From Salinarchaeum sp. IM2453 (GTDB lineage: Archaea > Halobacteriota > Halobacteria > Halobacteriales > Salinarchaeaceae): a stretch of DNA of 64,000 nucleotides. A model generated the notes under the pieces. The model was not told the DNA's origin, did no database searches, and saw only the letters and a list, made by a program, of their open reading frames with translations. A program made the position numbers and the translations under genes. The stretch spans positions 561,226 to 625,225 of the forward strand of contig NZ_CP081183.1 in the NCBI RefSeq assembly GCF_019693215.1, read 5' to 3'. The number at the start of each line of letters is the position of its first letter. The first letter of the stretch is position 1. Positions 13,001 to 47,982 of this stretch are shown here, in pieces.

Positions 13001-13694
13001 CGGGGCCGTGTCGAAGGTTTGGCGTCTCAAGAAGAAACGCTCTGAGCTCAGAAATACAGGACATCAACTTACTGTTGTCATTGTAGTACCGATTCTATTA
13101 ATTGTTTCCACAATATTTCGCAAAATCCAGGTTCGATATTAGATAGCCCGTTGCATGTGCAAAATTAGCTGATAGTTAGTGCCCGTGTATGGGCATTATT
13201 AGCCAACTCTGTTTAAAGGAACCTGCAACATTATCTGGTTTTTGGCCCTAGTTTCGAAAGCGTGCAACGTGCTATTAGAGTATTAATAGTATAATGAGCC
13301 TGTTCAACGTACCATAGATTCAATAAGTTCTGCAACTCTATCAGATGATTGATTGTCTCTGTGCTTATGGATTACTTCACACCTCTCTTGACGCTTATCT
13401 TCATACGGATCATTTTTGATTGCTGACTCGACCTCGTTTAAAAAATCTTTTTGTGAATCAACAGCAGGTCCGGGTATAGTATCGAAGTAATCATACAGAA
13501 GTCCTTTCTCTGTTTTATACTCGTCATAATCATACGGGATAAAAATCATTGGACGGTCAACTAACATAAAATCCTTATATATTGACGAGTAGTCCGTTAC
13601 CAAGATATCTGTTATTGCTAATAATTCATTGACATCTTCATACTTATCCGCAGAGGCTATCTTTATATTATTAGATTTGTTCTCTAAGCTGTTA

Positions 13695-14763: not shown

Positions 14764-15661
14764 TAAGCTGTTAAGGAAATGTCTCAATGATTCATATTCA
14801 TCACCGACATGTGTACCCCTCGTAACATCCGGGTGAGGGCGTATAAGAAGTAAAATATCGTGTTCTTCTAGTTTTTGAAAAAGCTTCTGTGGGTTGAAAT
14901 CCTCAAATGGAAAGAACTTCATCTCTAAACTTTCTGTTTTTCTATGAGTTGGAGCATACATAACAATATGAGAGTAATTATTGGCGAAATCTATCTCAGG
15001 GTTTGAAAATATTTTGTCATTTCTCGGGTAGCCGGTTATAGCAAAATCATCCTCTGATAAAGGTCGGGTTTTCAATCTTTGGTTGATTTGGAATTCTGAA
15101 GTTGTTAGAACATATTCAACCTGCTCATTCCGCTTTTTCTTGTGTGTTCTTTTATCTGGGTTCGCTTCGGGGTCCCCTTTTATTGGATTCCCGTGCTGAC
15201 AGTAGATTAGATTAAGCGACGACGGTATTCCCATCCTCCCTGTGGGAGAAAGATCACTTGTTTGGTGAGTAAATAAACCTATATTTGCTCGAAAAAGAGT
15301 TTGTAAGCTGCGGATCGAGTTCATGTGAACCACTGGTTTGTTTTCGTTCTTCAGTCTATCATAAACCTGCGAGCTTCTGGTTATCCAAATAGGAGTTAAT
15401 TCATAATCGTTATCCAATATATGTTCATAGACTGCTTGAGGATTACCGCGATAACTTTCTCCCCTGTGCGCTCCAAAAATAACTAAGTCGGGGCGATTTG
15501 GAACTACCCCACCGACATAACGTATTATATATCTGTTAACTTTTTGGGCCAAATACTTCAAACTTTTTTGTGCAAATACTAGTAATCCCTCTTTGCGAAT
15601 AATTTCCTTTGACCTTTTGAGCATATCCATTGCCATGTTGCGCATTGCTTTGTTTATACGT

Positions 15662-16681
15662 GGCGGTGGTGCAGAACTGTTCTCATAGCGTGATGGTTGG
15701 ACTGGCAACATCGTTTCCCCGATGGTGATTGGCGAGTGCGACGGCCAATCGGAGGCAGAGAGCGATGAAGACGTGTACTTTTACGCGTACTCGGCCTCGG
15801 ACCCGCCGGGTCCCGAGGCCGAGATCCTTACAGACACCAATCGCTGTTTCAACCCGTGAGCGTTCTGCATACGTCTCATCGAGTTGGTGCTGCCAGAGAC
15901 GAACGGTGTCGCTGTGTTCTTTGATTCGCTCTTCGACGCGGTATTCTATGTCTGGTGGATCGTCCGTATTCCGTGGGTTGTACGGCGATATCGGCACGAC
16001 TGACTGCTCCAGCAGCCAGTCGTGCCACCCCAGCATATCGAACTCTGAGTCACCGAGGAACCAGCGTGGGGTATCGACCTTCTTAGCTGGAGTGAACGCT
16101 GCTGCGACCGGTATATTGTGTGCTGCGGTGACGACACAGCAGCCGTAGCCGTAGTAGTCGTCTTCTGCGTGATCGTAGTTCCAGTCAGCGTCCTCGTCAC
16201 GCTGATCAACCGGAAGATTTGTCCCATCGATGCGAAAGAGCTTGCCGAGCGGCACCTGCTCGACAAGTTCGTGAACTAACTCGATGAATACGTCTTCAGC
16301 GACGAGTGCGAAGTCAGTGATGAACCGTGAGAGTGTCCGCCGGGACGGCGGACTCTCAAAGCCACACTGTCGCCAGACATCCTCGTTGCGGAGTTCCCGC
16401 GCCATTGGACGAGGACCGTAGATATCATGTTAAAAGCAGTGGAGGACACCTTTCAGGAGTTCTGGTGGCTCGTGAACCCGTGTTCGCCCCCGATCCAAGG
16501 GGGCGAACACGGGATAGTCGGTGAGGAACGACAAATCGAGGTGTTCGAACAGCGCAGTTGTCTCAGTCTCCAGTGTTTTGAAGACCTGTTCGACCGTATC
16601 GTTATCCGGTAGGACGGACTTGGTGCTGGACACATCAAATTCGTCCTACCGCTTCCTTGTGAGGACTTCTGCCCCACCGCC
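15662..16681 (-). mobile_element. IS5-type element copy 2, decayed
   Basis: About 1.02 kb bounded by the same GGCGGTGGTGCAGAA-type inverted repeats as copy 1 and by an 8-bp direct repeat TTATACGT (15654-15661 and 16682-16689). It sits immediately upstream of the TagF-like gene start. Confidence 0.85.
15683..16633 (-). pseudogene. IS5-family transposase, nonsense and deletion
   Basis: It aligns along its length with the intact copy at 13716-14714 but has two lesions. A TAA replaces a Tyr codon after GVLHCF (about 16427-16429), and roughly 15 codons are missing in frame between AAFTPAKKVD and PRWFLGDSEF. The DDE residues remain readable. The divergence from copy 1 shows it is the older insertion. 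Confidence 0.85.
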
Positions 16682-17688: not shown

Positions 17689-18351
17689 CTACTCATCACT
17701 CTCGAATACATACCTGAGAATCTGTTGGTCTACCCTTGCTGATGGAGAATGACGTTCCGGATGCCACATGATCCCCCAGATCGGAAGCGACGGGTGGAAC
17801 AAACATTCAACAGTCTCATCAGGCGCGATCCCGCCAACGGTCAACTCAGCGGCGACATCGTCCTGGTTGATCCCCCAGTTATGATAACTGTTCACCGTGA
17901 TTGTCTCGGGGATAGATAGGCCATTGGTCTCAGCAAACGATATCTCATGGGAAACATCGACATGATCAGAAACAGCCGACAGATCACCACCAAAATACAC
18001 ATTGAGCAATTCAAGCCCTCGACACACCCCAACAACAGAAAGTCCAGTCTCAACGGCAACATCAAGCACTGCCTGCTCAAACGCGTCGCGAGCCGGAGCT
18101 GGTGTCTCTGGGTCTGTATGTCCCACAATGTCATTCCCACCCGTGAGAATCACACCGTCAATTGATAGACGAGTCAGATATGAACGAACGTTCTCTGGCG
18201 CAATCCGATTCGGTAATGGAACTGGAGTATACCCTAACTCTTGGAGTAACGAAATCCATGCCTGATCCAGACAGTCACGACGCTCCCCATACTCTTCGAT
18301 AACACTCACACGCTGGGTCACACCAATACGAAGTGGCTCATCTGTCATCAC
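17689..18351 (-). CDS. Class I glutamine amidotransferase-like hydrolase (peptidase C26, Cj1417-like)
   Basis: A 220-residue peptidase C26 family protein. The nucleophile is C110 in VGVCRGLELLN and the rest of the triad is H197/E199 in IMWHPERHSP; an oxyanion-type segment ILTGGNDI lies at 69-76. In the Campylobacter phosphoramidate pathway a C26 enzyme (Cj1417) hydrolyses gamma-glutamyl-CDP-amidate to glutamate and cytidine diphosphoramidate. It overlaps the upstream kinase gene by four bases (ATGA) and abuts the cytidylyltransferase, the same order as Cj1418-Cj1417-Cj1416. Without this context it would be called a gamma-glutamyl hydrolase. Confidence 0.85.
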   Translation of the reverse strand: MMTDEPLRIGVTQRVSVIEEYGERRDCLDQAWISLLQELGYTPVPLPNRIAPENVRSYLTRLSIDGVILTGGNDIVGHTDPETPAPARDAFEQAVLDVAVETGLSVVGVCRGLELLNVYFGGDLSAVSDHVDVSHEISFAETNGLSIPETITVNSYHNWGINQDDVAAELTVGGIAPDETVECLFHPSLPIWGIMWHPERHSPSARVDQQILRYVFESDE

Positions 18352-21300
18352 TTGACCTCACGAATATCTTTTGCACCACAATGCAGTTCAAGCACATCAA
18401 ACCGACGGAGCTGATCATACCGTTGTTCGCCGACGCCAATCGCCGCCGGTAGCGAAAACTCCGCCGCACGAACGGCCATATGCGAGTTTGATCCACCATA
18501 CATCGTAATCAAGCCGGCAATATCATGTCCAAACAGCCAGTCATATCCCGGATCAGCCTGCGGAATCAACACAATTTTGCCGTCAAGATCAATCTCAGTG
18601 ACAGCCTGTTCATCTTCAATCTCAATGACATCTGCAGTAACTGACTTGCCAGTCACAAAATTTGGTTCTCGAGCGGGACGCTCAAAGACCGTAAAGTCAG
18701 ACGTATCAAAGAGCAACGGTGGTAACTCAACGCTCTGAGTGATCGTGTGTTGTTTGCGGCCCTCACGAATCTGCTCGTCAAGCCACTGTGAGAGGTCTGC
18801 AGGTGGCCGGTTAACACTCAACTGGAAAAATGACTCAATCGGGATATGCGAAAGCTCTTCACGTGAGACATCATGCTGCTCGCCAAACATCGCGATTTGT
18901 TCAAGTGCCTCGCTTAGATTTTGGGAGAACATAAACTTTGATTGCTCACGACCTTCGATGGCTGCCACGAGAAAGTCAATAAACGCGTCAATATCAGCTG
19001 GCAAGCCAACGCGTGCAAGTTCAGATTGTACAGCCGTTTTCGTATCCTTATCCCAGACATGATGCGGATCAGGAAGATCATCCGGGGCAGTTGCTTTCTC
19101 AACCATCGGCCGAAGATACGTCTCTGGCTCAACATCATATCGTGGCGATGTGATCTCATAGGTACCCGGACGAAGATGACCATACTGGGAAACAAAGTTG
19201 TCCCATGAAAGCTTATCGACCGCAACCCGATATGCGTCACGTTCGAACTGTCGAGCAACGGTATTGAGCGAGTTCAAAAAGGCACTATGCTCCTCAGCAG
19301 ACAGGAGACCAACCCGTTCAAGCGAGCGGAGAAGCGTTGTCGCCACAAACGCAGTCCGGGCCAAATGGGCAAATGGAAGGGTTCCAAGCCGACGACAGTC
19401 AGCAAGCAGTTGCCGGGCTGTTCGTAACGGAGGCAGATCCGCTGCCATAATGTCCTCATACCGCTGTTCAAGCGTCTCAACAGCCTGCATATCAGTCCGT
19501 GTCTCAATCCGCTCAAAGGCATGCTGATTAATCTCGTTGAGCCCTGATCGCAACGGCGCAAGCTCTGACTGCTCAAAGCCAGCATCTAACAATGGCTGAA
19601 TCTGCTGATCATAATCAAACGGCAAGCAGGTAAGGACAATATCAAACTCGACTTTGTCATGGTACGCTGGATTCTCCGCTAACCGCTGGAGATAATATTC
19701 AACAAGCTCTTCTGCCAGCTCATCCGGCACTGAGGCTGGAATAAACGACGTAAAATCAGCCCGCACATCAACAAACGGCTGACCAGCAAATTGGCGCATC
19801 AACGGATGTGGACGAACATCACGGTAGCCGTATTCAGCACGCTGTTGGGCCCAGATATCATCCATCACAAGATATCGATATAATGATGAGGCAAGCCGTC
19901 GAGGACGGCGACCAATGATTTCAGCCGGATTCCAGTCTGGCATGACACCATAAATTGTTGAGTCACCCAAGACACTTGGGGGCGCGTCCTGAGTTCGCTC
20001 AAACTCACGCGTGGCAGTATCAATTGCCGTATAGACTGCCCCGTCATCGGCGGTTGATTCGGCCGGATCGATTGTCATTGGACGAGTCTGGAGAATATAG
20101 ACCGTCTCGTCTGCATCAATCGCAAACTCAATATCAAGACTATCATGCCCGATGACATCCTCAAGCTCACGGATGGCCGCCAGTAAGGGCTCAAGCGCAA
20201 GATCAGTTGGATACTGCGTAGATAGCGAAGCGTCCGTCTCGTTCATATCATGTCCAAGGTCGGACCGCTGGTCAGTCTTGAACAGATCTTTTCTGATAAT
20301 AGCAGTCTGAAGGTGTTCGCCTGTCCCATCAGTAACGGTCTCTGTGCTGCTGGTTGTGGCATCATAATTAACGACATAATACGGACTGCCAGTATCGAGA
20401 GTGCGAGTCATCACAACACCACTCTGTTCTGGCTCATCAATCATCGGTTGGACCAGTACCTGATTCTCCGGATTCTCATCGGGATATGAATCGATAACAG
20501 TTTGCACCGCGTTTGACAGTGTCGCCGGATCATCAGCGCGTACATCAAGAATGCTTTCAAACCGGCCTGCATTTGATTCATCCCATGAGTCCTCGGCGAG
20601 GGCACTCGACCGAACAATCACCGGATCACCGCCAAACATATCAGCAATGTCAGTACAGATCTGGTCTGCTTGCTGGTCCCAATCTGCTACGGTGAACGTA
20701 TATTGATCGAGAATCGTGCTTTCAGAGACAACAGATTGGAGCCGTCGTAAGGTGTTTGCCTTCGTATCGAGGATAAATCGAGACAGATCAGCCTCAGTTT
20801 CTAACTCAGCCCATGCATCTTCGATATCAACAACAGCAATATCAGCGCCAGCAGCTGCTGTCGTTGTGAGTAATTCCGGCAAGTCAGCATCATCAGTTAG
20901 AACATTACGATTCCACAGCGAATGGATCCGATCAAGATCCGCTGGATCAATCCGAACAAGTCCGGTAAACTCAGCATCCGCCTCAGTCACAGCGAGGTCC
21001 GTACCTGCTTTAACAAAGTGATTGTCTTCTGTAACGATCTTCTCAGCACGCTGGAGACTATCATCTGCTCGGTCATGATATCTGGTCTGCCAGCTACTGT
21101 CAGCTGCAACCGTCGTTTGTCCGTCCAATCGTGTGACGGCTGTTTGCTCGAAGACTGTGTCAGCATAGCAGACATACACAGGCCGATCAGTCGGAATTGG
21201 TGCGGTAAAAAGCGATCCAACAGTACCGGTCTCATCCCACTGATCGTTACGGGAGAAATGAATGTCAGGATACTCATCGATAATTTCGTCAATCCGGTAA

Positions 21301-21461
21301 CCACCAACAAAGTGAATCTCTGGGCGTTCAAGCGCCTGTGTAAAGGCATCAATTAGCCAGTCAAGAACACGCTGATTACCAGACGGTCGTGTAAGAGCCG
21401 AAGGTTCGGTTCCAGTAAATGGCTTCCCAGCACCAAGAATGACAACAACTGAACGAGTCAC
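18348..21461 (-). CDS. L-glutamine kinase-like protein (Cj1418-like) with fused N-terminal nucleotidyltransferase-like domain
   Basis: A 1037-residue protein. Residues 1-230 look like a divergent nucleotidyltransferase (VVVILGAGKPF in place of the GTR loop, VYVCYADTVF near 95-104, TGLVRID). From about 235 an ATP-grasp domain of the PEP synthase/PPDK type follows: VIVRSSALAEDSW (281-293), QSGVVMTRT and VYILQTRPM. A long middle region has no pattern I recognise. The C-terminus (about 950-1037) is the swivelling phosphohistidine domain with GGSNSHMAVRAAEFSLPAAI, catalytic His near 994. C. jejuni Cj1418 has the ATP-grasp plus His-domain layout and phosphorylates the amide nitrogen of L-glutamine. 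The fused N-domain is the unusual part; lacking GTRL, it may bind rather than transfer nucleotide. Confidence 0.82.
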   Translation of the reverse strand: MTRSVVVILGAGKPFTGTEPSALTRPSGNQRVLDWLIDAFTQALERPEIHFVGGYRIDEIIDEYPDIHFSRNDQWDETGTVGSLFTAPIPTDRPVYVCYADTVFEQTAVTRLDGQTTVAADSSWQTRYHDRADDSLQRAEKIVTEDNHFVKAGTDLAVTEADAEFTGLVRIDPADLDRIHSLWNRNVLTDDADLPELLTTTAAAGADIAVVDIEDAWAELETEADLSRFILDTKANTLRRLQSVVSESTILDQYTFTVADWDQQADQICTDIADMFGGDPVIVRSSALAEDSWDESNAGRFESILDVRADDPATLSNAVQTVIDSYPDENPENQVLVQPMIDEPEQSGVVMTRTLDTGSPYYVVNYDATTSSTETVTDGTGEHLQTAIIRKDLFKTDQRSDLGHDMNETDASLSTQYPTDLALEPLLAAIRELEDVIGHDSLDIEFAIDADETVYILQTRPMTIDPAESTADDGAVYTAIDTATREFERTQDAPPSVLGDSTIYGVMPDWNPAEIIGRRPRRLASSLYRYLVMDDIWAQQRAEYGYRDVRPHPLMRQFAGQPFVDVRADFTSFIPASVPDELAEELVEYYLQRLAENPAYHDKVEFDIVLTCLPFDYDQQIQPLLDAGFEQSELAPLRSGLNEINQHAFERIETRTDMQAVETLEQRYEDIMAADLPPLRTARQLLADCRRLGTLPFAHLARTAFVATTLLRSLERVGLLSAEEHSAFLNSLNTVARQFERDAYRVAVDKLSWDNFVSQYGHLRPGTYEITSPRYDVEPETYLRPMVEKATAPDDLPDPHHVWDKDTKTAVQSELARVGLPADIDAFIDFLVAAIEGREQSKFMFSQNLSEALEQIAMFGEQHDVSREELSHIPIESFFQLSVNRPPADLSQWLDEQIREGRKQHTITQSVELPPLLFDTSDFTVFERPAREPNFVTGKSVTADVIEIEDEQAVTEIDLDGKIVLIPQADPGYDWLFGHDIAGLITMYGGSNSHMAVRAAEFSLPAAIGVGEQRYDQLRRFDVLELHCGAKDIREVK

Positions 21462-34906: not shown

Positions 34907-35642
34907 ATGCCAACCGGGAAGCTAAGAAGGTTCTCAAAAAACATGAATAAATATGATACACGCACAGTATTTCATTCTGCCTTCAATTCTATCGTATCAT
35001 GGGCAAGTGATCGGTGGAGCCGGACTAAAAACCAAATTAAGTATAGGAAATCTTACCCAAGTCCGTATAAATTGATCCGCATTGATCCAAATAACGTAGA
35101 TTGGTTGATTGTCCCTCGTTACATTAAGCCCGATAAGTATAAAACCTATATTCATGCAGGTGACTGGGATCAAGCATATTCCGACGAAGTAGTTCATTAT
35201 ATGGGAACTTCAGAAGGATACGATGATCGTTCATCTCCAAAACTCATTAACTTTGAAAATTTTACATTCTGTACTTCTCTTGAGAGACATTTCAAGGGAT
35301 AATGTACCGTGGGAAGAAACAGAGATTTACAATAAGTTGATGTCCAGAGATATCTCAAGCAGATATGATAGTGATGATAACATAAAAGCTAGATTAGGCG
35401 AAGTGGATGTACTTCATAATCAAGTTGATGAGAACGGATACATGTCTCAGCGACAACTGCAATATAAAGATGATACTGCTTTTTCGCCAACAGAGAAAAG
35501 TCCACCTGAAAAAGAAGAAGTTCTTGTAAACATTGGGCGAGACGGTGAAATTATATTCTGTACTGGGCGGCATCGCTTCTGTGTTGCCCGTGTGTTAGAT
35601 ATTGATCAGATCCCAGTGAGGGTTCACGTCAGGCACCAGTAG
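34907..35642 (+). pseudogene. ParB/Srx-like protein gene with a frameshift
   Basis: The N-terminal half has the family's PYKLIRIDPNNVDW and ends LERHFKG-stop at 35302. The C-terminal half continues in the next frame as DNVPWEETEIYNKLM and then EVLVNIGRDGEIIFCTGRHR, the ParB-like catalytic or binding loop. Dropping one G from the GGG near 35294-35298 joins HFK to DNVPWEETE, so a single-base insertion is the only lesion in the body. Compared with its relatives the C-terminal tail after VHVRHQ is missing. It is one of four paralogues in the window (see 41136, 43499-45663 and 45822). Confidence 0.7.
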
Positions 35643-35848
35643 TTGAAAGTACACCCCAAATACGGAACGTATTCTGGCCCACTTGATGCAGTTTACTGTC
35701 CCAAAACGAAGCTGGCAGCGAAGACTCTTCTCAAATGTGAGTTTTATCTGATAGCTCGGGGTGAAATTAGCGACGAAACGCGAGAACAGCCGACCGTTGA
35801 CGAGTGCTGCGGCTCACCGTTTTGCTACCACGAGAAGCGGTTCAGACG

Positions 35849-38020
35849 CTACCCGTAGTCCACGTCCGGGAACTCCAGGTCCAGACTGAGGCCGCTGAGC
35901 ACGCGCCGGTCCAGCTCGTCCAGGTAGGTGTTCTGCTTGACCACAATCTCGTCATCATCGCGGTCGGGGCTCTGGTCGGCAACGGCTGTGTTCAGCATCA
36001 CCCAGCCGTTGTACAGCAGGTTCTGCATCATCCAGAGGAACCGCCGGTAGCCGAGGTCTCGGGACCGCGTCTTGGCGGCAAACTGGCTCTTCTTGTCCCG
36101 GAACGCAGTCTCGACGCCCCAACGGTCCCGGTACAGGCGACCGATTCCCCAGGCCGACCCCTCAGGATCGTGGGCGATGGGATTCTCGTCCGGGTCAATA
36201 CCGGCGCGATCGACGTTCTTGCTGGTGATGATGCAGAAGTAATCGATCTTCTCGCTGTCCTTGTGGGACTCTTCGACCATCTGGTCCAGCGTCATCTGCG
36301 CGTCATCCAAATCGTCATCTCCATCATCGAAATCATCGAGCGTCGTGTCCGGCTCATCGTCCCCGTCACTGTCCTTCTTCTTGTGGTCGGGGACGCTCTT
36401 GAAGTCCTTCTCCAGGCCGACGAGCGTCGTGTCGTGTGTCTTCCGCCGTCCGTCGCTGATCACGGTCCAGTCGTTGTCCCAGTCAGCGCGACCTTCGAAG
36501 TCCTTGACCCGATCCTTCACCGACTCCGTTGCGCCCTTCCGAAAGCTGTAGTGACAGCCGCAGTGCCGGATGTACCGCAGGATCTTCGTGTCTACGAACT
36601 CGGCGTCTGCCAGTACTGTGTCGATGTTCACGAGCTCCCGAGCGCGGTCGAGGATGTACTTCACGCTTCGGAACTGGTCGTTCACGGGCAGATAGGACAG
36701 CGTAGCGATGATGAACGCCCGACCGTTGATCTTGATGGTCCCCTGGAGTTCCTTCCAGGCGTAGCCAGTGTCGAGATGTGACTGCTTGTGAAGGCCGATC
36801 GGCGGCGCGCTGTCAACCGAGGAGTGACGGCTGTGATCGTGTGTGGTGTAGTCGATCCGCAAATTGAACGTCTCGTCTTCCTCGATCACGTCCTCTTCTT
36901 TCAGCCAGTCGATCTGCCGCTCGATTGCTTCCTCGGTGCGCAGGTGCCACGTGGCCGTTTCCCCTTCGGAATTGAGTGGGTCGATCGCCCAGGCCTCTTC
37001 GTAGGCTTCGCGGAGATCTCCCTGAACGAGATTCTCGTCTACCAGCTCGTGCGCAGGGAGCCACTTCGCCCCGTATTTGTCCTCGTTGTCCCAGTCGTAA
37101 TCGGGGATCTTCTTGCGCTCGACGTTGCGAGCGGTTCTTCGGAACGTCTGCTGCTTGAAGAGATCCCACTCCTCACTGCCGTCCTCTTTCTCCTCGATCA
37201 GGCCGTAGTCCTTCCCCATCCGCTTGATGCCCTGCTGTGCGTACTCGTTGCGCCGACACATGTGGGCTGCAGCATCGGTGATCAACCTGTCGTCCCACTC
37301 CTCGGAGTCATCGCGGTCATAGGAACACACGTCGCGGATGATGTCCGCCTGAATCGTGTAGGCATCGTCCTTGATCTCCTGCTCCAGCTCCCCAATCGGG
37401 TCGCTCTCCCCATCACCCTCAAGCTGGAAGTCCTGTACCAAGTTCTCTCGGACGTTCTCGGCAGTATCCACGTCGTACTCTTCGCACTTCACGGCGATCT
37501 CGGCGGCGCGGTACCGGATCAGATCGCGGAAGTTCGGCCCGACACGATCCCACCAGTTCTCCCGAAGGGTTCGCTCGCTCGGTGTTTTGTCCGGCGCAAA
37601 CCGCAGTTGCTCGGCAATCTTTGGATCTTCCAGTCTCTCTTCGAGCTGCTCCCAACTCATCACGGAGTAGCCGTTTGACGGCGCGACCAGCCGGTAGACC
37701 CAGGCGTTGGACATCGAGCGAATATCGTACGGAGAATTCGAGTAGCGATCGTCTCGGTCCGGGACTACGTCCAAAAAAGTGGTCCCAAGCACGTCGGCAA
37801 CAGAGTCATGCCGTTCTGATAACAGATCACGGACTTTAGCGGTCTTCTCCGTAAGTTCCTCAAACTCCTCGGGGAGCTCGTTGTTTTCGGGATCGAACGG
37901 CTCGCGGACTTCCCACAGACTCTGGCATTCCTTTGTCTCGATAATCTTCTGCGATCCCGAACCGTCCCCGGTTAGACAGCTATCGCCGCCGCGAGCGCCC
38001 GAACCGGGGCCGTTCTGCAT
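35849..38020 (-). CDS. Large DDE-type transposase (about 720 residues)
   Basis: A long haloarchaeal transposase. The catalytic core is recognisable as NLRIDYTTHDHSRHSS (first Asp), DTVLADAEFVDTKILRYIRH (second Asp) and LYRDRWGVETAFRDKKSQFA (the Y-R-E-K-type Glu region of IS4-like enzymes). A long acidic insert (DGDDEPDTTLDDFDDGDDD) lies between the last two. The reading frame is intact. It is markedly GC-richer than the AT-rich genes around it and has long GC-driven open frames on the opposite strand, so it is a recent arrival. I could not find clear terminal repeats. Confidence 0.8.
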   Translation of the reverse strand: MQNGPGSGARGGDSCLTGDGSGSQKIIETKECQSLWEVREPFDPENNELPEEFEELTEKTAKVRDLLSERHDSVADVLGTTFLDVVPDRDDRYSNSPYDIRSMSNAWVYRLVAPSNGYSVMSWEQLEERLEDPKIAEQLRFAPDKTPSERTLRENWWDRVGPNFRDLIRYRAAEIAVKCEEYDVDTAENVRENLVQDFQLEGDGESDPIGELEQEIKDDAYTIQADIIRDVCSYDRDDSEEWDDRLITDAAAHMCRRNEYAQQGIKRMGKDYGLIEEKEDGSEEWDLFKQQTFRRTARNVERKKIPDYDWDNEDKYGAKWLPAHELVDENLVQGDLREAYEEAWAIDPLNSEGETATWHLRTEEAIERQIDWLKEEDVIEEDETFNLRIDYTTHDHSRHSSVDSAPPIGLHKQSHLDTGYAWKELQGTIKINGRAFIIATLSYLPVNDQFRSVKYILDRARELVNIDTVLADAEFVDTKILRYIRHCGCHYSFRKGATESVKDRVKDFEGRADWDNDWTVISDGRRKTHDTTLVGLEKDFKSVPDHKKKDSDGDDEPDTTLDDFDDGDDDLDDAQMTLDQMVEESHKDSEKIDYFCIITSKNVDRAGIDPDENPIAHDPEGSAWGIGRLYRDRWGVETAFRDKKSQFAAKTRSRDLGYRRFLWMMQNLLYNGWVMLNTAVADQSPDRDDDEIVVKQNTYLDELDRRVLSGLSLDLEFPDVDYG

Positions 38021-38077
38021 ACACGGCAGAACGTCCTCGTGGCTTATAAGTCTGCTCCGCGTGGAGCGCGGGCGACG

Positions 38078-38311
38078 TTACTTCGGAATCCAGTAAGAGA
38101 CGCGATTCTCGCCGTGCTTCTTCTTGCTGATCTTGCCGTCCTCAACGAGCGTGTTGAGACGGCGCTGCACGGTCCAGCGGCTGGTATCCTCGAAGGTGTC
38201 AACGATGTTAGAGACACTGTAGGGCTCGCAGGGATTCATTTCAGCGTACACCTGCTCGGGCGGCGGTTCTCCCGGCTGCCTGGGCACACTATTGGCTTGC
38301 GAGTCGGCCAT
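38078..38311 (-). CDS. Small winged-HTH protein accompanying the transposase
   Basis: A 77-residue protein from the ATG at 38311; an in-frame ATG at 38344-38346 is also possible. The body NPCEPYSVSNIVDTFEDTSR, then WTVQRRLNTLVEDGKISKKK is a winged helix-turn-helix. It precedes the large transposase by 57 bases on the same strand and has the same high GC, so the two probably move together. It may regulate transposition or bind the ends. Confidence 0.65.
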   Translation of the reverse strand: MADSQANSVPRQPGEPPPEQVYAEMNPCEPYSVSNIVDTFEDTSRWTVQRRLNTLVEDGKISKKKHGENRVSYWIPK

Positions 38312-38552
38312 GATTATACTTGCCCCATGTGGGGTAACGTACTTCATTCTTCCCCGCACAGTGCATAATAGGGTGCTGCCTCGTTCTGCACCACGTGGAT
38401 CAACCTGGAAGTATCTATACCACATAGGAGATAATGTGGGCGCAAAAGGTGCTCAAGACCATTATGTGAAGGATACAGAAGTCCTGTAGAAGCACAAAAA
38501 CGGCTCAGTAATGTTAATAAGTTTGATTTGAGATGAGATACACGACATAGAT

Positions 38553-39497
38553 ATGACTCACCGTGTTTTGATTACAGGCGGAGCCGGTTTCCTCGGCAGT
38601 CACCTGTGTGAACGGCTCTTATCTGAGGGGCACGAAGTGATTTGTCTCGACAATTTCGGCAGTGGCCAGCGAGATAACATCACAGAGTTCGAAGATCATC
38701 CTGCGTTCACAGTCGCTGACCGAGATGTTCGCATTCCGGGCTCGCTTCCGTCTGTGGATCGAATCTACCATCTCGCATCACGAGCGTCGCCAGCTGACTT
38801 CACGGATTTTCCGGTCAATATCGCGCTAGCGAACACACAGGGGACGCGGCGATTACTGGACCACGCGCGGGCGTGCGATGCACGAATGGTTTTTGCCAGC
38901 ACAAGCGAAGTGTACGGTGATCCTGAGGTCCACCCGCAGCCTGAAACCTATACAGGCAACGTGAATATCCGCGGGGTTCGAGGCTGTTACGATGAATCCA
39001 AACGATTCGGAGAAACGCTGACTGTCGCGTATCAACGGAAGTACGATGTCGATGCCCGCACAGTCCGTATCTTCAATACATACGGTCCGCGAATGCGTCC
39101 TGATGACGGACGGGTCGTCCCGACGTTCGTCACTCAAGCGCTTCGTGGTGAGGATCTCACAATCTACGGTGACGGTGAGCAGACCCGCAGTTTCTGCTAC
39201 GTAGACGATCTCATCGAGGGCCTTGTCTCACTCATGCGGGTTGATAATCCTGAACACGATGTCTACAACATCGGGAAGGAGAATGAGCGGACAATCAAGG
39301 AACTAGCGCACGAAGTGCTGGATCTGACTGATACTGAGTCCGACATCGTCTACGAACCGTTACCTGAAGATGATCCGAGTCAACGCAGACCCGATATTAC
39401 CCGTGCCAAGACAGAATTGAACTGGGAGCCTGAAATACCGCTTAGAGAGGGACTAGCCAGCACGATTGCCTATTTCAAACGCCACACACAAATATGA
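38553..39497 (+). CDS. UDP-glucuronate decarboxylase-like SDR (UDP-xylose synthase type)
   Basis: A 314-residue extended [22 protein letters not shown] is the NAD site and [17 protein letters not shown] carries the catalytic Ser/Thr. [14 protein letters not shown] is the YxxxK motif in the form typical of UDP-xylose synthases (YDESKR), followed by [10 protein letters not shown]. It would make UDP-xylose or a similar pentose donor for the downstream glycosyltransferases. It overlaps the next gene by four bases (ATGA). Specificity is inferred from the motif form. Confidence 0.83.
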
Positions 39498-40675
39498 AAG
39501 AATTATTCTATAAAGGGTTGAAAAATCCGCATAAGGTACCCCCCTTTTTGATCCGTAAGTCACTAAACTATTATACCAGGAATAAATATTCAAACTTAGT
39601 ACACGATTCCGCTGAATTGAAGTCTGTCGCTAATAACTACTGGGAACTACCTGATAATACTGATGGGCTGAATGCTTCACTAGCCGAAAGGATTGCTCCA
39701 GGCGGAGATAGCGTTCGTATTAAAAAGACGCCAAATTTTGTTTTCACAAACCCGTTTGTTTGTGAAGTAAATGATGTAATCTTATCGGGGCCATATGCAG
39801 CAGGAAAAACCCCACAGGGAAAATACATCGAAGATATGATTGGAAGACCAATAAGTCATGGAAATCGTTATTCGCAAGTCAGTAGAACAATCACATCCGA
39901 ATGGAATCTGTATAAAAAGACCACCCAACCACAGTCTGTCACACAACTTGCTACCGCCGCAGTGATTCATCGAGCGAGTGGTTCTCAAAATTTCTACCAC
40001 TGGATGATTGACCACATACTCAAACTACGGGCGATTGAATTCTATGAAAGAAAGACAGGTGATGATGTGAAATTAATTGTATCAGAACATATTCCCGGTT
40101 TTGCGAGAGAAGCTATTGATTTGCTCGGGTTCGGAAACCATTCAATAATCGAATGGAAAGAAAACAAAATGAGTGTCGATAAGCTCATTGTACCTTCATG
40201 GCCTGACCCAACTCCCGGTAATCTGCATTGGATCGAATCAAAAATCAGATGTGAGACAAATGAGTTTGGTGATAAGGAGTGGGTGTACATCTCTCGCCAG
40301 AATGCTTCCCGAGGAAGAAAAGTTGCCAATTTCGATGAGCTGACACCGATACTGAATGACTTCGGTGTTGAGGTGATCTATTGCGAAGAATATTCACTAG
40401 AAGAGCAGATTGAATTGTTCCGATCAGTGGACGGAGTTATTAGTCCACATGGTGCTGGACTGACCGGTATGATTTGGACGGATTCGTTGTCAATAATAGA
40501 GTTATTCAACGGTATAGTTAAAATGCCATTCTACGTCTTAGCAGATATTCTTGAGCATGAATATTCCTATTTAATCGGTGAAGCAGTAACTGATCAAAAC
40601 CATAGAGGGGTTAGGGACCGTGATTTGGTTATTGATCCTGACAACTTTGAGAACATTTTGGAAAAACAATTATAG
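39494..40675 (+). CDS. Glycosyltransferase family 61 (DUF563)
   Basis: A 393-residue protein with the GT61 core: [20 protein letters not shown] (NYYHW-type motif), [20 protein letters not shown], then [18 protein letters not shown] and IIELF. GT61 enzymes transfer pentoses (xylose, arabinose) or GlcNAc. Coupling by a four-base overlap to a UDP-xylose-synthase-like gene makes a xylosyl or other pentosyl transfer plausible. No membrane segment is evident. Confidence 0.82.
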
Positions 40676-40769
40676 ACGTGTATGCCGAAGGCCACATACC
40701 TTCGGCCAAGTGAAATGTTCGACTTTTGTATGTAGAAGCGAACGTTTTAGCCACTCGCTCCCGCCCTTG

Positions 40770-40997
40770 TTCATAAGCTGACTACGACAACCAGCGCCGA
40801 TACAATAAACTCGAACATTTCGTGGTTGAAGCCGGATCAGTCGAAGCGATGCGTGATGCCGCTCACAATGGATGGCACGGACTCCACGAGCACTCGTAAC
40901 AGTACTGTACGATACCGGGCTTCGCCGTGCTGAGCTAGCAGCCCTGGATCGTGACATGGTTAACCTCACCGAAAGAGAGTTCCGAATCCCAGCCTGA
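40770..40997 (+). pseudogene. Gene fragments including a tyrosine recombinase piece
   Basis: The frame ending at 40997 reads ALVTVLYDTGLRRAELAALD then RDMVNLTEREFRIPA, the box around the first catalytic Arg of XerD-like integrases; nothing of the rest remains. Just before it (about 40774-40899) another frame reads DYDNQRRYNKLEHFVVEAGS, an unidentified but protein-like fragment. Together they mark a former integrated element. The region 40676-41135 holds nothing else. Confidence 0.55.
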
Positions 40998-41135
40998 ATT
41001 CAGAAAAATCATTCAACTAGAATATATTTCTCCGGACTGCTACACCGAGCCAGAGAGCGATCGGGCGAGGCAACTGCACCACTCGGGGTGAATTTTAGGT
41101 AAATCACCACGTGGTTCAGAATAGCATTAAAGAAT

Positions 41136-41351
41136 TTGAGAAAAGGGATTCGTATATACGAAAACAAAACCGAAACAAAATGGCGAGAAATGATTACCAA
41201 TCGACAAAGCTGGGTTCCGGATTTGGCCCGTTTTCAACTACTGAGGCACAAACAATGGCAACAACTCCGAAATAAAGTCTACAATAACGGAATATCTGAG
41301 GAGTACGAAACATTGCGAAGCCATCCGGATTTACAGGATATAATTAATTGA
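41136..41351 (+). pseudogene. C-terminal remnant of a ParB-like paralogue
   Basis: The end HKQWQQLRNKVYNNGISEEY, then ETLRSHPDLQDIIN matches the tail of the paralogue at 43499 (EEWQHLRDSFFQNQ, then DLRAHPDMQDVINSF). The part with the conserved Gly-Arg-His/Tyr-Arg loop is missing, so only the tail survives. Confidence 0.6.
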
Positions 41352-41464
41352 AATCGACGAAGTGTCGAACATATACCCCATTTTGAAAAAACAATAATAG
41401 CATAGCAGTTCAGTTCTATAACAATCCAAAAAGGCTTAATCTTCAGAGTATCACATCTGGATAG

Positions 41465-42622
41465 ATGAATGTCTCATATGTGTATCACACAGACTGGGAC
41501 CCCGCACGCCCGCACGGAAAGCAAATTATACATACTATCAATGGTTTAGCAAATCAGGAAAACAAGATTTCGCTTTTTACACCAGCAGCTCCAAACCAAT
41601 TTCTGGATGAAAATCAAGTTGATTTGAACGCGAACATTCAGACGCTACCAACAGCGCGAGTAAATGCATATGCCGGTCGGTTTGATAACTATTCTAGGAA
41701 GTATATCGATCAGTTTACTTACTATATGTTCGCAACGTTTGCATCGGTTCGACAGGATCTTATTTTTACACGTGATTTTAGGTACCTCAAATTTCTTCAG
41801 TATCTCCCGTCATCACTTTATCCGCCGGTTCTGTATGAAGCACATCAGTGTTACTCAGGTTACGATGAATTTTCAAAGAAAGAAGAATACACGCGATTAC
41901 AGGAGGCAGACCGGATTATTACTCAAAGTCCAGGAGTTGCAAAAGACATCAGAGCACTTGGGATTGAGGTTGCCGAAGTAATTCCAAACGCTGCCCCCCA
42001 GTCGTTTGTTCCAGAGGAACCACAGGCCGAGCTTCGGGATCAGTATGGTTTCAATCAAGAGTCAACTGTGATTATATACGCAGGGAGTTTCTCACAGTGG
42101 AAAAATGATCTTGAGTTGGTTGTTGATGCAGTAAGCAAGCTTGTGACCGACGATACTAACGACGCTACTAATATTGAACTTGCATTTGTGGGAGGAACAG
42201 ACGAAGAGGTCAAAGAACTCGCTGAATACTGTAACACAATCTTACCTGACAGCATTCGATGTCATCTATTTGGCCGTGTTCCGCATCGATCCGTATTTAG
42301 ATATCTCAAGGCCGCTGATATTGGCGTAATTCCACTCCGAAAAACAAGTCAGGAGGCAACAGAATACACGTGTCCAATCAAGCTTTTTGAATATCTAGTG
42401 AGCGGGTTACCGGTCGTCTCGTCAAATGTTCCTTCAATTAATCTGTTATGTGACTCAGAAGATCCGGTAAGTACATACACCCCTGGCGATTCGACAGCCT
42501 TCGCACAGGCAGTCCGTGACGCAATGAAAGAAACTTCGTCGTCCGTTGAGACAAGTAAATATACTTATGAAAATCGGGCCAAGCGACTCAATGAACATCT
42601 ACAGGCCACTACAAGCAAGTGA
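41465..42622 (+). CDS. Glycosyltransferase family 4-like (GT-B)
   Basis: A 385-residue GT-B enzyme. The N-terminal acceptor domain is followed by the linker segment IIYAGSFSQWKNDLELVVDA and then HLFGRVPHRSVFRYLKAADI, then CPIKLFEYLVSGLPVVSSNV, the nucleotide-sugar binding region of GT4 (the E-x7-E analogue is KLFEYLVSG). It would extend the lipid-linked or surface glycan in the cytoplasm. It is followed 51 bases later by the P-loop kinase on the same strand. Donor and acceptor cannot be told. Confidence 0.85.
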   Translation: MNVSYVYHTDWDPARPHGKQIIHTINGLANQENKISLFTPAAPNQFLDENQVDLNANIQTLPTARVNAYAGRFDNYSRKYIDQFTYYMFATFASVRQDLIFTRDFRYLKFLQYLPSSLYPPVLYEAHQCYSGYDEFSKKEEYTRLQEADRIITQSPGVAKDIRALGIEVAEVIPNAAPQSFVPEEPQAELRDQYGFNQESTVIIYAGSFSQWKNDLELVVDAVSKLVTDDTNDATNIELAFVGGTDEEVKELAEYCNTILPDSIRCHLFGRVPHRSVFRYLKAADIGVIPLRKTSQEATEYTCPIKLFEYLVSGLPVVSSNVPSINLLCDSEDPVSTYTPGDSTAFAQAVRDAMKETSSSVETSKYTYENRAKRLNEHLQATTSK

Positions 42623-42673
42623 CTGAGAAGAGTTAGGTGAGACAAGCATCAGAATAGCGTATAGGTATTATAT

Positions 42674-43408
42674 ATGAATCAGATAGAATTCATTGGACCT
42701 CCGGGAGCAGGAAAATCCACCTTACATGCAGATCTAATCGAGCAGAATAACTTATTCGGCGGTGTTGATGATGGGGCGATTGATCGACTAATACAGGAAG
42801 ATCACCGACTCTATCAGTTGTTCTATCGGATGGCCTTCGGGCGGATACAATCTACCTTAAAATGGGAGTTGTTTTATCATCGTTATCACCGAGACGCATT
42901 CAGACGATACATAAGCGAAAATGTGGCCGCTCTCGATATTGTACCTGAAATCTCACGTTGCGCGACACGAGCACCAGAAGAAGCAGTCCTTTTTTACAAG
43001 AAAACAATCGAAAACTATCAGTTGGCAATAGACTCAAAAATGCCACAAGAAATATTCTGCTGGGACGAAGGATTTGCAATGGCAGCAGTTGCAATCCTTT
43101 GGCGAGCAGAGAGCAATAACTTTCCGTTAAAAAAGTATTTTCAGGGAATACCAACACCGACAGCATTGGTATATGTCGATGCACCAAGAGAGGTATGTCT
43201 GGAACGCGCTAACAGCAGGGAACAACAAACGTTGAGCAAGGGGTGGATTAACGACCAGCAACGTGCATATGATCGACATCAAACAGCGTGCGAGCATGTA
43301 GTTGAGACACTATCCGATGAAGTCAAGATAATACACGTCAAGAATACTGGATCAATCAAAAAAACGTCTGAAGAGGTTTCTACAAAGTTAGATGACATGC
43401 TTGAGTAG
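42674..43408 (+). CDS. P-loop kinase-like protein
   Basis: A 244-residue P-loop NTPase. IEFIGPPGAGKSTLHADLIE is Walker A at the extreme N-terminus; FCWDEGFAMAAVAILW may be the Walker B/acceptor region; LVYVDAPREVCLERANSREQ is the lid-type Arg segment of small-molecule kinases such as thymidylate or APS kinase relatives. The substrate is unknown. Because the phosphoramidate-type operon at 16.9-21.5 kb lacks a kinase equivalent to Cj1415, this is a possible but unproven candidate. Confidence 0.7.
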   Translation: MNQIEFIGPPGAGKSTLHADLIEQNNLFGGVDDGAIDRLIQEDHRLYQLFYRMAFGRIQSTLKWELFYHRYHRDAFRRYISENVAALDIVPEISRCATRAPEEAVLFYKKTIENYQLAIDSKMPQEIFCWDEGFAMAAVAILWRAESNNFPLKKYFQGIPTPTALVYVDAPREVCLERANSREQQTLSKGWINDQQRAYDRHQTACEHVVETLSDEVKIIHVKNTGSIKKTSEEVSTKLDDMLE

Positions 43409-43835
43409 TAGTAACGGCTGCAAAACCGATGTGGGTTGATTCACAGGACAAAAGTAGAATACCGGTGCGCTCACAAGATCATGTTAATCTGAGGTTAATT
43501 AAAAAGAGTTGATGACATCCTGCATATCAGGGTGTGCACGAAGATCTGAGAAGGAGCCGAGAGAGGAGGTGTTCGACTGGTTCTGAAAAAAGGAATCACG
43601 AAGGTGTTGCCACTCTTCATGCCGACAAACAACATGGACGGGAACAACATCTAAGTCAAGAAGTTGAGCGATTGCAAGCCGATAACGACCGTCCCAGAGG
43701 TAAATTTCTCCGTCCTGATTAATGACTGTCAAAATGCTCAATTTCTGCTTATACCCGATCGATCCACGATATGTAGGGCCAGTGTGATTAGCCTGATACC
43801 CTTGATCTCGAATTGTCTCATACAGTTGGTCTTGA

Positions 43836-45215
<1,380 letters not shown>

Positions 45216-45821
45216 TTTCTATAAAACAGACATCGTTGTTTGAGTGTTTGCTGATCAGTGGAGCCACGTAGTTCCTGATAGTATATCGTATCCGACCAAT
45301 CATATCCTTTCGTAAAGCGTTGTACAAATCCGCGCTTGACATAATTTTCAGAGAAAGAGGAGCGGAAATGAGAAGAAGAGTTCCAAACAGCAATTTGCCC
45401 AAGGCCTCCGTTCCATGTATGGAGTTTATCGATTACCGGAGTCTCTCTACTAAAGTCCCATTCAATAGTATGTGGATCGACATGGATGAGGCGGTATGGG
45501 TGAGCAGGTGCAGTATAGTTCATTCGGTTAGTAAGCCAATTCCGTCGCGTAGCCGTTCGAAATTTTATTTCTCGATACAATTCGCTGGCAAGAAACTCAT
45601 TGTATAATCCCCGGGGCCTTGGCTACGAAGAATGTCGAATGCCTGCCTGGCATAATATTTCATTATCCAAGTTCTTTCTGCTCCCATTTCAAGTTACTTG
45701 CGACAAAAAGTGCCAATACAATTGTATAAATATTGAAACGCTATAGATAGCAGACAGTTTGGGTTTAGTACATCGGAGCCTGGAGTTCTTCGGATCCTAC
45801 TGATGAGAACAACACGTATGC

Positions 45822-46535
45822 CTACAATTGAATAGGAATAATTCCTCGACTATCGTACCCACCATCCCAGTCTGCATGTTCAATTTGAACAATTCCCGGC
45901 ACCGTATCAATACCGAGTAACTTGGCAACTGCCATCCGGTGACGACCAGATGCACAGTAGATTGGATTGCCATTGCGATCAATGGCAACACGCATTTCAT
46001 CAGGGACAGAAACACCTCGAACAGTACGGGTCCACTCCTGATCAACATGTGACCGATACCCGTTTTCCTTCATGTCGGTATACAAATCATCGATACTACG
46101 ACAGTGGTCCTGCAAGTCAGCAAGCGTTTTACAATTATTGTCTGCTCGCTTGCCGTTCTCGATTTTGGTCTCTGCCTGCTGGTATAGTGGCGTTGCCTCC
46201 CACGGTTTGTTCTGCTGATAGCGTAGTTTGAGTGACTGATACACCGGTTGTTCAGTGAAATCCTTCGTCATCAAATCCCAGTTACCGCGTAACTCCCCAA
46301 AAACGGCATCATCACCACGAACACTAAATGGGAACCACTGGATTTTGTCAAATGCATCAACATCGAGTTCAATGATTTGCATGTCATATGACTGCTCAGG
46401 CGTGAAATTCCAGTGCTTTCTCAGTGCTTGTTGATGCGTCTGTTTGCGATCAAGCACGTAGAGTAACGTTACAAAGGCAGTATCAACGGCAGCGTTACGC
46501 AGCACATCAACAGCGGATTGCAGTTTCCAGTTCAT
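45822..46535 (-). CDS. ParB/Srx-like protein, intact paralogue
   Basis: A 237-residue protein, the only undamaged member of a four-copy family in this window. The N-terminal region holds MQIIELDVDAFDKIQWFPFS (the IDP-type segment of the family). The centre is helical. The C-terminus has VAIDRNGNPIYCASGRHRMA followed by AKLLGIDTVPGIVQI, the ParB N-terminal-domain-like loop (GRHR with a following hydrophobic helix). ParB/Srx folds include nucleotide-dependent kinases and CTPases. The presence of several copies among glycan genes suggests a role there, but no function is known to me. Confidence 0.7.
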   Translation of the reverse strand: MNWKLQSAVDVLRNAAVDTAFVTLLYVLDRKQTHQQALRKHWNFTPEQSYDMQIIELDVDAFDKIQWFPFSVRGDDAVFGELRGNWDLMTKDFTEQPVYQSLKLRYQQNKPWEATPLYQQAETKIENGKRADNNCKTLADLQDHCRSIDDLYTDMKENGYRSHVDQEWTRTVRGVSVPDEMRVAIDRNGNPIYCASGRHRMAVAKLLGIDTVPGIVQIEHADWDGGYDSRGIIPIQL

Positions 46536-46634: not shown

Positions 46635-47621
46635 TCAGGAGTTCCGGACAAGCGGATCATACCAGTCTTCGTTAGCACGATACCACTCGATAAACTGCTC
46701 AACACCCTCCCGAATGCTGACTGTCGGCTCATAATCAAGCAGTTCACCAGCCTTTGTGACATCAGCATGGGTGTGTTCGGCGTCACCGGTGCGTGGGTCA
46801 TCATACACGAGTTCAAGTGACGGGTCAATCGCATCACGGACAACCTCCGCAAGCGTCTGAATATCGATGTTATCTGAGGATCCAATATTGAGAATCTCGC
46901 CATCAGCACGATCATCCGTCAGCAGCTGCTTGTTGACACGTCGGACATCATCAACATACGTGAAATCACGGGTCTGCTCACCATCACCGTAGATTACTGG
47001 CGGTTCACCATGCAGGCACCGTGAAACAAAGTTCGTCATCGCCATGTTTGGCCGCATCCGTGGGCCATAGACCGTAAAGTATCGCAGCGAAACAGTCGGT
47101 AGCCCGTAGACTTCATTGTACACACGAGCGTACTGCTCGGTTGCCAGCTTTGAGACACCGTATGGTGAGACTGGCTCGGTTGGATGGTCCTCATCATATG
47201 GCAGATACTGTGGCTTACCATACACAGACGAGGAAGACGCAACAACAACCCGGTCAACATCATGCCTTCGGGATGCTTCAAGGACATTCACCGTTCCGGT
47301 GACATTGAATTCATTTACTTTGGCTGGTTCTTCGACACTTTTTCGCACCCCGGCCTGTGCAGCCTGATGATAGACAACATCTGCATCAGCGATCTGTGCA
47401 TCAACCATCTGCTCGTCTGTGATTGACTCTTTAATCAAGGTATACGAGCCATCACTCTCGGCAGCGGCAGCACGTGCAGCCTCGACGTTGTGTTCTTTGA
47501 TACCCAGATCATAATACGGGACAAACGTATCGATCACGGTCACATCATGGCCCTCAGCTGCAAGCTCTTCGGCGATATGGCCGCCAATAAATCCTGCACC
47601 ACCAGTGACTGTTACCTTCAT
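46635..47621 (-). CDS. NAD-dependent nucleotide-sugar epimerase (GalE/WbpP-like)
   Basis: An extended SDR of about 328 residues from the ATG at 47621. VTVTGGAGFIGGHIAEELAA is the NAD site, VVASSSSVYGKPQYLPYDED supplies the catalytic Ser, VSPYGVSKLATEQYARVY is the YxxxK motif, and SLRYFTVYGPRMRPNMAM follows. The pattern fits UDP-Glc/GlcNAc 4-epimerases or UDP-glucuronate 4-epimerases. It would interconvert UDP-hexoses for the glycan. It stands alone on the minus strand upstream of the ParB-like gene. Confidence 0.85.
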   Translation of the reverse strand: MKVTVTGGAGFIGGHIAEELAAEGHDVTVIDTFVPYYDLGIKEHNVEAARAAAAESDGSYTLIKESITDEQMVDAQIADADVVYHQAAQAGVRKSVEEPAKVNEFNVTGTVNVLEASRRHDVDRVVVASSSSVYGKPQYLPYDEDHPTEPVSPYGVSKLATEQYARVYNEVYGLPTVSLRYFTVYGPRMRPNMAMTNFVSRCLHGEPPVIYGDGEQTRDFTYVDDVRRVNKQLLTDDRADGEILNIGSSDNIDIQTLAEVVRDAIDPSLELVYDDPRTGDAEHTHADVTKAGELLDYEPTVSIREGVEQFIEWYRANEDWYDPLVRNS

Positions 47622-47982
47622 TGTCACATGATTCTAGAGAGAATTGCTAAATCTTTCTGGTTTAGACAGGTGTGACTATTCCAATTGTTATATCAATTAG
47701 CCCAACCGTCGATCAGTCACAGGCTGTCTTTCGGGTTTGTCGCTGACCTGAATTCTACTGAGGGATATACTGGATTCTGCAGCAGGTATACAATCCGACT
47801 CGCCAGATCATTCGTCGTTTTTCATCGGTCCAAAGAGACGTTTACCAGCGTCAGCCGAGGTCGTGCTCTCCCATGAATCACGGTCAGTTGTTGCCGTCTG
47901 TATCTTCGAGTTCGGTTTGGGATTAACTGCTAATATGAGATTACCAATAACACTGATAATTATGTAGGCTCTCAGATATGAT

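Follow-up and report, generated by a model that had tools for sequence, protein, structure and literature searches.

A widespread ParB/Srx-like protein family of archaeal and bacterial glycan loci and its putative role as a glycan kinase

Within the 2.66-Mb single-contig genome of the haloarchaeon Salinarchaeum sp. IM2453, positions 561,226-625,225 of contig NZ_CP081183.1 (a stretch of 64,000 nucleotides, here called the window, in whose coordinates positions are given unless stated otherwise) are rich in glycan genes, including those for a NeuB-type synthase, a UDP-GlcNAc 2-epimerase-like protein, epimerases, and glycosyltransferases of families GT61 and GT4. Interspersed among them are genes of a protein family whose core domain resembles the fold shared by ParB and sulfiredoxin (Srx), and which we think probably consists of nucleoside triphosphate (NTP)-dependent glycan kinases on that fold, an activity that is putative. 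A first-pass annotation of the window had counted four copies. The pieces at 34907-35642, 41136-41351, 43499-45663, and 45822-46535 do belong to one family, according to a search of the genome against itself, shared motifs, and a family profile. The first two are halves of one gene, which rules out four independent copies, and the window holds three family genes, two of them broken. The own-genome search, run with the intact 237-residue copy, found six places, three in the window and three intact genes outside it; the tail at 41136 is not among these matches, and its place in the family rests on its motifs and on a match to the family profile (E 1.5e-5).

The left part of gene 1 (34907-35636, forward strand; own-genome match at contig positions 596517-596864) encodes the ParB/Srx-fold protein up to the point of a transposon insertion. 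It contains an internal frameshift, as noticed at first reading, which can be placed between about 35190 and 35300. The right part (41244-41351, forward strand) carries the tail RH...HPDLQDIIN and was recognized by motifs, reading frame, and family profile. Between the two lies a 5,607-bp transposon (35637-41243), delimited by terminal inverted repeats and a target duplication. Its ends form a perfect 12-bp inverted repeat (35637-35648 and 41232-41243), with longer imperfect similarity beyond, and it is flanked by a 6-bp direct repeat (35631-35636 and 41244-41249). At the join, one reading frame of the left half ends in ...VRH and one of the right half begins with RHKQW....

Gene 2 (43499-45663, reverse strand), correctly described before as split, is interrupted by an IS200/IS605-like element with tnpB. 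Its 3' part (43499-43834; motifs LYETIRDQGYQ...DGRYR...HPDMQDVIN, supported by the reading frame) is followed by the TnpB gene (43837-45093, reverse strand; PF07282, with PF01385 below its cut-off) and then by the 5' part (45164-45660, reverse strand), which has a frame change near its start and an approximate inner end. Gene 3 (45822-46535, reverse strand) is intact and encodes a 237-residue member of a short subclass, in which the residues at family positions D214 and R237 are replaced. The GRxR loop pointed out earlier reads TGRHR, DGRYR, and SGRHR in the window pieces, and the HPDxQDxIN tail is found in those at 41136 and 43499. That no tail could be seen in the 45822 copy reflects a true absence of the HPD tail, which is also absent from its two short-subclass relatives. 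Of a proposed common N-terminal segment RLIxxDPxxIxW, the kinship that it implied stands; the N-terminal segment of the 45822 copy fits it poorly.

The family is real, widespread, and mostly unannotated, across both archaea and bacteria. With copy L002 as query, matches at E <= 1e-5 were obtained in 99 of 293 genomes of the order and 49 of 87 genera, with up to nine scored places per genome; the two other listed genomes of the family to which Salinarchaeum belongs gave no match. A scan of GTDB contigs (84,980 species), with loci picked by two conserved peptide patterns, yielded 42 loci, of which 23 are haloarchaeal, two nanohaloarchaeal, one from Lokiarchaeota, and 16 bacterial, the last including Pseudomonadota, Thermodesulfobacteriota, Verrucomicrobiota, WOR-3, and Nealsonbacteria. 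One locus (L065) has no family open reading frame (ORF) and was left out, so that 41 were counted. Three to five divergent paralogues are clustered at each of several loci (L055 4979-11608, L048 4764-8100, L011 390-3109). In the members scanned, the core domain reaches the cut-off of no Pfam family, and PF02195 (the ParB N-domain) gives no match at E values up to 1 or 0.1. Relatives on plasmids are annotated mostly as ‘hypothetical protein’ and are unannotated in two records; in Paenibacillus the label is ‘methyltransferase domain-containing protein’.

Conservation was examined in an alignment of 86 rows (the rows of a family alignment plus family ORFs scoring above 80 bits; 81 rows distinct), numbered according to L002. 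Three columns, R218, G208, and H238, are invariant in 86 of 86 rows. They are followed by W129 (85/86), R206 (83/86), W103, D104, G101, and G215 (each 82/86), R237 (79/86), H256 (74/86), and D258 (72/86). The loop has the form D-G-x-H-R, its fourth place being H in 73 rows and N in the other 13.

An AlphaFold2 model of the 261-residue L002 copy, built from the 32-row alignment, has a predicted local distance difference test (pLDDT) score of 91.3. Nearly all of the best rows in a Foldseek search with this model are Srx, ParB, Noc, KorB, PadC, or SbnI, and 30 of the first 32 rows ranked by VIA-align bear one of these names or that of SerK, the remaining two being uncharacterized proteins; the top VIA score is Z 5.1 over 85 residues. 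The ParB/Srx fold suggested in the first-pass annotation is thus borne out by the best rows, at low scores, and by these methods the core domain of the model resembles that fold. A helical stretch of about 95 residues (approximately 105-195), with WD, PWEET, and GYxSQ motifs, falls within the matched range and, in our reading, depresses the scores. A profile of the core domain reached a best E of only 0.33 against the sequences in PDB. The model has three helices at its N-terminus. After the last strand there are about 20 residues, one short helix and a tail, and no helix-turn-helix (HTH) or C-terminal dimerization domain lies downstream of the fold in the 261-residue model. In sulfiredoxin the catalytic Cys sits in GGCHR; at the corresponding position 216 none of the 86 family rows has Cys (R in 61, K in 6, H in 4, others in 15). 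The P motif (Box II), defined as GxxR (PMC12704722), is present, with G215 in 82 and R218 in all 86 rows.

Kinases of free serine, SbnI and SerK, are already known on this fold. The family resembles them in fold and in the DGxHR loop, and they provide the best of its weak profile matches: among 32 members, SbnI was matched in four and SerK in two, with best E values of 2.5e-4 and 1.1e-3. In the core-domain profile alignment D214 is aligned with Asp58 of SbnI, and it is Asp in all 12 fused rows (those with a methyltransferase, described below) and in 51 of the 74 others. Asp58 and Glu20 of SbnI have been reported as required for its kinase activity (PMC9641203). An equivalent of Glu20 does not stand out among the sequence columns of the 86-row alignment. 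SerK has reportedly been studied with Glu30 mutants. The family differs from both kinases in its helical insert bearing GxWD and PWEET motifs and in its glycan context, and it falls far under the NCBIfam cut-offs, L002 scoring 18.2 against 380 bits for SerK and 15.1 against 350 for SbnI.

The association with glycosyltransferase genes that was noticed in the window holds elsewhere. Of the 41 loci, 30 have a GT2, GT4, or GT61 gene no more than 4 kb away, compared with none of 20 control regions (17 of 25 (nano)haloarchaeal loci and 13 of 16 others; Fisher p 1e-6 and 2e-7 against the controls), in a count for which some of the profiles were seeded with proteins from the same loci, the loci are not independent, and the control regions are all haloarchaeal, which leaves the bacterial loci without a matched control. 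The flippase profile used alongside matched its seed alone. Pfam families tell a similar story: 93 near genes of the 25 (nano)haloarchaeal loci include nine GT2, six GT4, three GT61, and six polysaccharide flippases, and 83 near genes of the other 16 loci (three of 86 were dropped before the scan for length) include 16 GT4 and five GT2. Among 98 genes of the 20 unrelated haloarchaeal regions, no glycosyltransferase family is found in the 25 commonest families; these are the families that the tallies show, and since the control has 153, a glycosyltransferase family with a single member is possible there. Ten of the 83 neighbours, picked by hand, comprise a GT8 protein, four other glycosyltransferases, a flippase, a sulfotransferase, a beta-helix protein, and two without a match. 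On three Halobaculum plasmids (L100, L101, L103), the family gene is immediately preceded by one for a Gfo/Idh/MocA-family dehydrogenase, the two overlapping or standing within about 20 bases of each other, which suggests that they form an operon.

The most specific indication of function comes from a fusion. In 13 of the 17 loci outside the (nano)haloarchaea, the core domain runs into a C-terminal class I methyltransferase (METHYLTRANSFERASE); among these, L065 leaves its contig and L062 is partly masked. A Pfam methyltransferase was recognized in seven of ten proteins scanned, the other three being L062, the unfused L075, and the haloarchaeal L061. A profile of ten methyltransferase domains, compared with the sequences in PDB, placed WbdD first (E 2.4e-8); a single fusion protein gave no match below E 0.1 in the same set. 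For a model of the fusion protein (pLDDT 89.8), rows 1 to 4 of the Foldseek search are WbdD, which also takes the top three places in VIA (Z 18.3, 191 residues, root-mean-square deviation 2.6, model residues 261-463 on WbdD 4-210), and an RNA methylphosphate capping enzyme appears at VIA row 13 (Z 15.8). By sequence profile and predicted fold, WbdD is therefore the best-ranked solved relative of the fused methyltransferase. This lead rests mainly on the profile and on Foldseek, because VIA re-ranks Foldseek's own list and an uncharacterized methyltransferase, 1ve3 (Z 17.4), ties with WbdD, VIA ties being taken within 1 Z.

WbdD has been reported to phosphorylate the mannose that ends the O9a chain before methylating that phosphate, and its H132A, H133A, R203A, and Y16F variants to lose methylation and keep phosphorylation; according to the same paper, the related enzymes NodS and RebM do not conserve R203 structurally (PMC3482155). 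The His132-His133 pair is kept in ten of ten family methyltransferases, where FHH is aligned to FHH 131-133 of WbdD. An Arg (in GR, once QR) about seven residues before the C-terminus is found in nine of ten and, assuming a last strand without gaps, would fall at WbdD 203, as the aligned ranges end at model residue 463 and at WbdD 210. Also in nine of ten, a Tyr lies five residues before the H of HPD (six in WbdD), the HPD motif itself being aligned with HPE 22-24 of WbdD. One protein, L073, has neither the C-terminal Arg nor the Tyr. Most haloarchaeal proteins keep HPD without having a methyltransferase, so this motif should have a role independent of that domain. A homologue of the fused methyltransferase as a separate gene beside the family gene was looked for in haloarchaeal loci and rejected, none being found at E 0.01 among the loci examined. 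A free-standing WbdD-like methyltransferase without a ParB-like domain is encoded at L105 2862-3614, in the same genome as L059, adjoining genes that resemble by eye those for an initiating sugar transferase and a flippase.

A tree built from 85 domains brings 11 fused rows together with three unfused bacterial ones in a single group (99/94); the fusion label requires three changes, possibly a single gain plus two losses. The intact protein of the window groups with proteins from Verrucomicrobiota and Haloarculaceae (100/97), and together they make up the short subclass. All three of them have no HPD tail, with A, G, and E at position 214 and E, Q, and K at position 237, and they keep WD, R206, GRHR, and H238. 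In three of three cases a longer paralogue adjoins the short-subclass gene or, at L068, lies one gene away. From these three cases, the short proteins may be regulatory or pseudo-enzyme partners.

Two characterized systems offer a comparison. WbdD, the O-antigen chain terminator of Escherichia coli O9a and Klebsiella pneumoniae O3, is alike in that a class I methyltransferase from glycan loci is joined to a phosphotransferase domain, which in the family is putative. The systems differ in that the partner domain of WbdD is a eukaryotic-type protein kinase with a coiled-coil, whereas that of the family is ParB/Srx-like, and in that the domain order is reversed, with the methyltransferase C-terminal in the family; a link to the exporter is not seen in the family loci, and the haloarchaeal members have no methyltransferase. 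In K. pneumoniae O7, a methyl-phosphate chain end is reported to be made by the methyltransferase-kinase ORF6-N of ORF6, with a methyltransferase and a kinase of non-WbdD fold; that kinase resembles the amicoumacin kinase AmiN (PMC11231755) and differs from the ParB/Srx-like domain of the family. A further parallel is found in a survey of ParB folds (PNAS 2025; PMC12704722), in which a bacterial fusion of a ParB fold with an S-adenosylmethionine methyltransferase is reported to have bound ATP; this fusion is not known to belong to the family. As presented there, that survey is based on PF02195, which matches no family member scanned, and its main text contains neither ‘polysaccharide’ nor ‘glycan’ and has ‘glycosyl’ once.

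These observations lead us to propose that the core domain would bind ATP, or another NTP, through the DGxHR phosphate loop and phosphorylate a sugar hydroxyl of a surface glycan, either while the chain is growing or once it is complete. A glycan kinase role is suggested because a methyltransferase of the WbdD type needs a phosphorylated glycan, which in both known systems is supplied by the joined domain; that the domain joined here would be the kinase is suggested because its ParB/Srx-like fold keeps the phosphate loop and already includes kinases. In bacteria and Lokiarchaeota, the methyltransferase that most members carry would then add a methyl to that phosphate; the resulting methyl-phosphate group would plausibly cap the chain end and stop elongation. 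Haloarchaeal members, having no methyltransferase, would leave a free phosphate, the several paralogues in a genome would serve different acceptors, and the short subclass, without the loop aspartate and the HPD tail, may act in a regulatory or pseudo-enzyme capacity. The phospho- or nucleotide-dependent glycan enzyme that had been guessed from the window would thereby take on a specific, though still putative, form through the WbdD-type fusion. The proposal in full, that of an unrecognized class of glycan kinases on the ParB/Srx fold in archaea and bacteria, producing a methyl-phosphate cap where the methyltransferase is present and phosphorylated surface glycans in haloarchaea, has in our judgement about an even chance of being right.

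Several observations weigh against it. Structural comparison gives the ParB/Srx fold low scores (Foldseek E 8e-3 at best, Z 5.1), and WbdD shares its Z range with 1ve3. Four of the 17 loci outside the (nano)haloarchaea are unfused. Haloarchaeal loci show no such methyltransferase, and the genome of the window has one weak match (E 6e-6), so that the argument from WbdD applies to haloarchaea by family only. Position 214 is not Asp in 23 of the 74 unfused rows, and among the three intact copies that this genome has outside the window, L003 and L004 do not have Asp there. The best acidic column between positions 60 and 101, where a Glu20 equivalent was sought, holds Asp or Glu in 57 of 86 rows, and the general base, if any, may on the sequence columns be another residue such as D104 (82/86). 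Context is also incomplete: within 4 kb no glycosyltransferase was detected in eight of 25 (nano)haloarchaeal and three of 16 other loci, L003 adjoins a pilin and a PAP2 phosphatase, and there is no annotated glycosyltransferase around L102. The WbdD pathway uses an ABC-transporter, and no such family is among the 25 commonest Pfam families of the bacterial neighbours; an ABC-transporter family matched three of the 93 haloarchaeal neighbours.

One other explanation is that the ParB/Srx domain serves as a nucleotide-binding switch or scaffold for glycosyltransferases, the methyltransferase acting on a sugar or on a phosphate placed by another enzyme. Other ParB folds, the ParB CTP clamp and the PadC type, are reported to work in this way and to bind CTP, GTP, or ATP (PMC12704722), and both the absence of a recognizable Glu20 equivalent and the free-standing methyltransferase in the L059 genome would fit. 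A switch or scaffold is harder to reconcile with a fold that is followed by only about 20 residues and by neither an HTH nor a dimerization domain, with a loop that is DGxHR as in SbnI and has Asp in every fused row, and with further conserved residues (W103-D104, R206, R237-H238) that look like an active site; in addition, both known methyl-phosphate terminators are reported to join the methyltransferase to the kinase that makes its substrate (PMC3482155, PMC11231755). We consider this explanation unlikely, though it deserves to be kept in mind.

Less probable still is that a glycan chain is not the target, and that the core domain modifies a polyprenyl carrier, a nucleotide sugar, or a small molecule in support of glycan assembly. 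SerK and SbnI, the known kinases of the fold, do act on free serine, PAP2 phosphatases occur in two loci, and the dehydrogenase upstream on the three Halobaculum plasmids suggests sugar-precursor chemistry. Against this, WbdD is reported to have acted on a phosphate borne by mannobiose but to have left unmodified those free sugar phosphates that were tried (PMC3482155), and the mixture of neighbours (GT4, GT2, GT8, GT61, sulfotransferase, flippase) fits modification of a chain better than supply of one precursor. That the genes are degenerate ParB genes of plasmids or phages, brought into a glycan locus by mobile elements and without a link to glycans, is very improbable. It would account for the mobile elements in both broken genes of the window and for relatives on haloarchaeal plasmids; however, motifs are strongly conserved over 86 sequences, no parA-like family is among the 25 commonest in either neighbour tally, and the recurrence of a glycan context across several phyla is strong evidence to the contrary. 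A decayed ParB was ruled out on that cross-phylum context together with the absence of any PF02195 match in the members scanned.

Kinases on the ParB/Srx fold and capping by methyl-phosphate are known kinds. What is new, as far as our searches of the open-licence literature show, is their combination and the place of this family in archaeal and bacterial glycan loci, of which no description was found. If glycan phosphorylation by these proteins is confirmed, a large family whose plasmid members are mostly ‘hypothetical protein’ would gain a function, and a glycan kinase would be added to the roles of the ParB/Srx fold. Methyl-phosphate capping would then have arisen with several unrelated kinase folds, here unlike both characterized systems compared, and phosphate would be predicted on archaeal surface glycans, which can be checked by mass spectrometry. 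Groups at the chain end set polymer length and influence recognition of the cell by viruses and mating partners.

Other genes around the three family genes also relate to glycans and to their mobility. The transposon within gene 1 encodes a DDE transposase (DDE_Tnp_1; 35849-38020, reverse strand), and the stretch 35630-38100 that contains it has no second copy in the genome, its sole match being itself. The transposon also holds genes for a small winged-helix protein (38078-38425, reverse strand; PF07106, E 2.4e-5), an NAD-dependent epimerase/dehydratase (38553-39497, forward strand), and a GT61 glycosyltransferase (39494-40675, forward strand; PF04577, E 1.1e-20). The sugar epimerase and GT61 genes look like cargo of the transposon. 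The element may have a nested or composite origin, and is a possible vehicle for the exchange of glycan genes between haloarchaea.

Between genes 1 and 2 lie a GT4 glycosyltransferase (41465-42622, forward strand) and a P-loop protein resembling small-molecule kinases (42674-43408, forward strand). A relative of the latter adjoins a family gene on a Natrononativus plasmid (L102 6694-7497; 28% identity over 245 positions). As a fixed partner of the family the P-loop kinase was rejected, relatives occurring near family genes only in the window and at L102 among the loci examined. Beyond gene 3 lies a neighbour resembling NAD-dependent epimerases and GDP-mannose dehydratases (46635-47627, reverse strand). 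Elsewhere in the window, a gene that resembles by eye a glycan polymerase (13304-15711) appears to be split, into 14716-15711 and 13304-13774, around a transposase at 13716-14714. A protein of 1037 residues (18348-21461) combines PPDK ATP-binding and PEP-utiliser domains in an unusual architecture; its first 250 or so residues resemble by eye a nucleotidyltransferase, and its gene adjoins one that, also by eye, is like those for class I glutamine amidotransferases.

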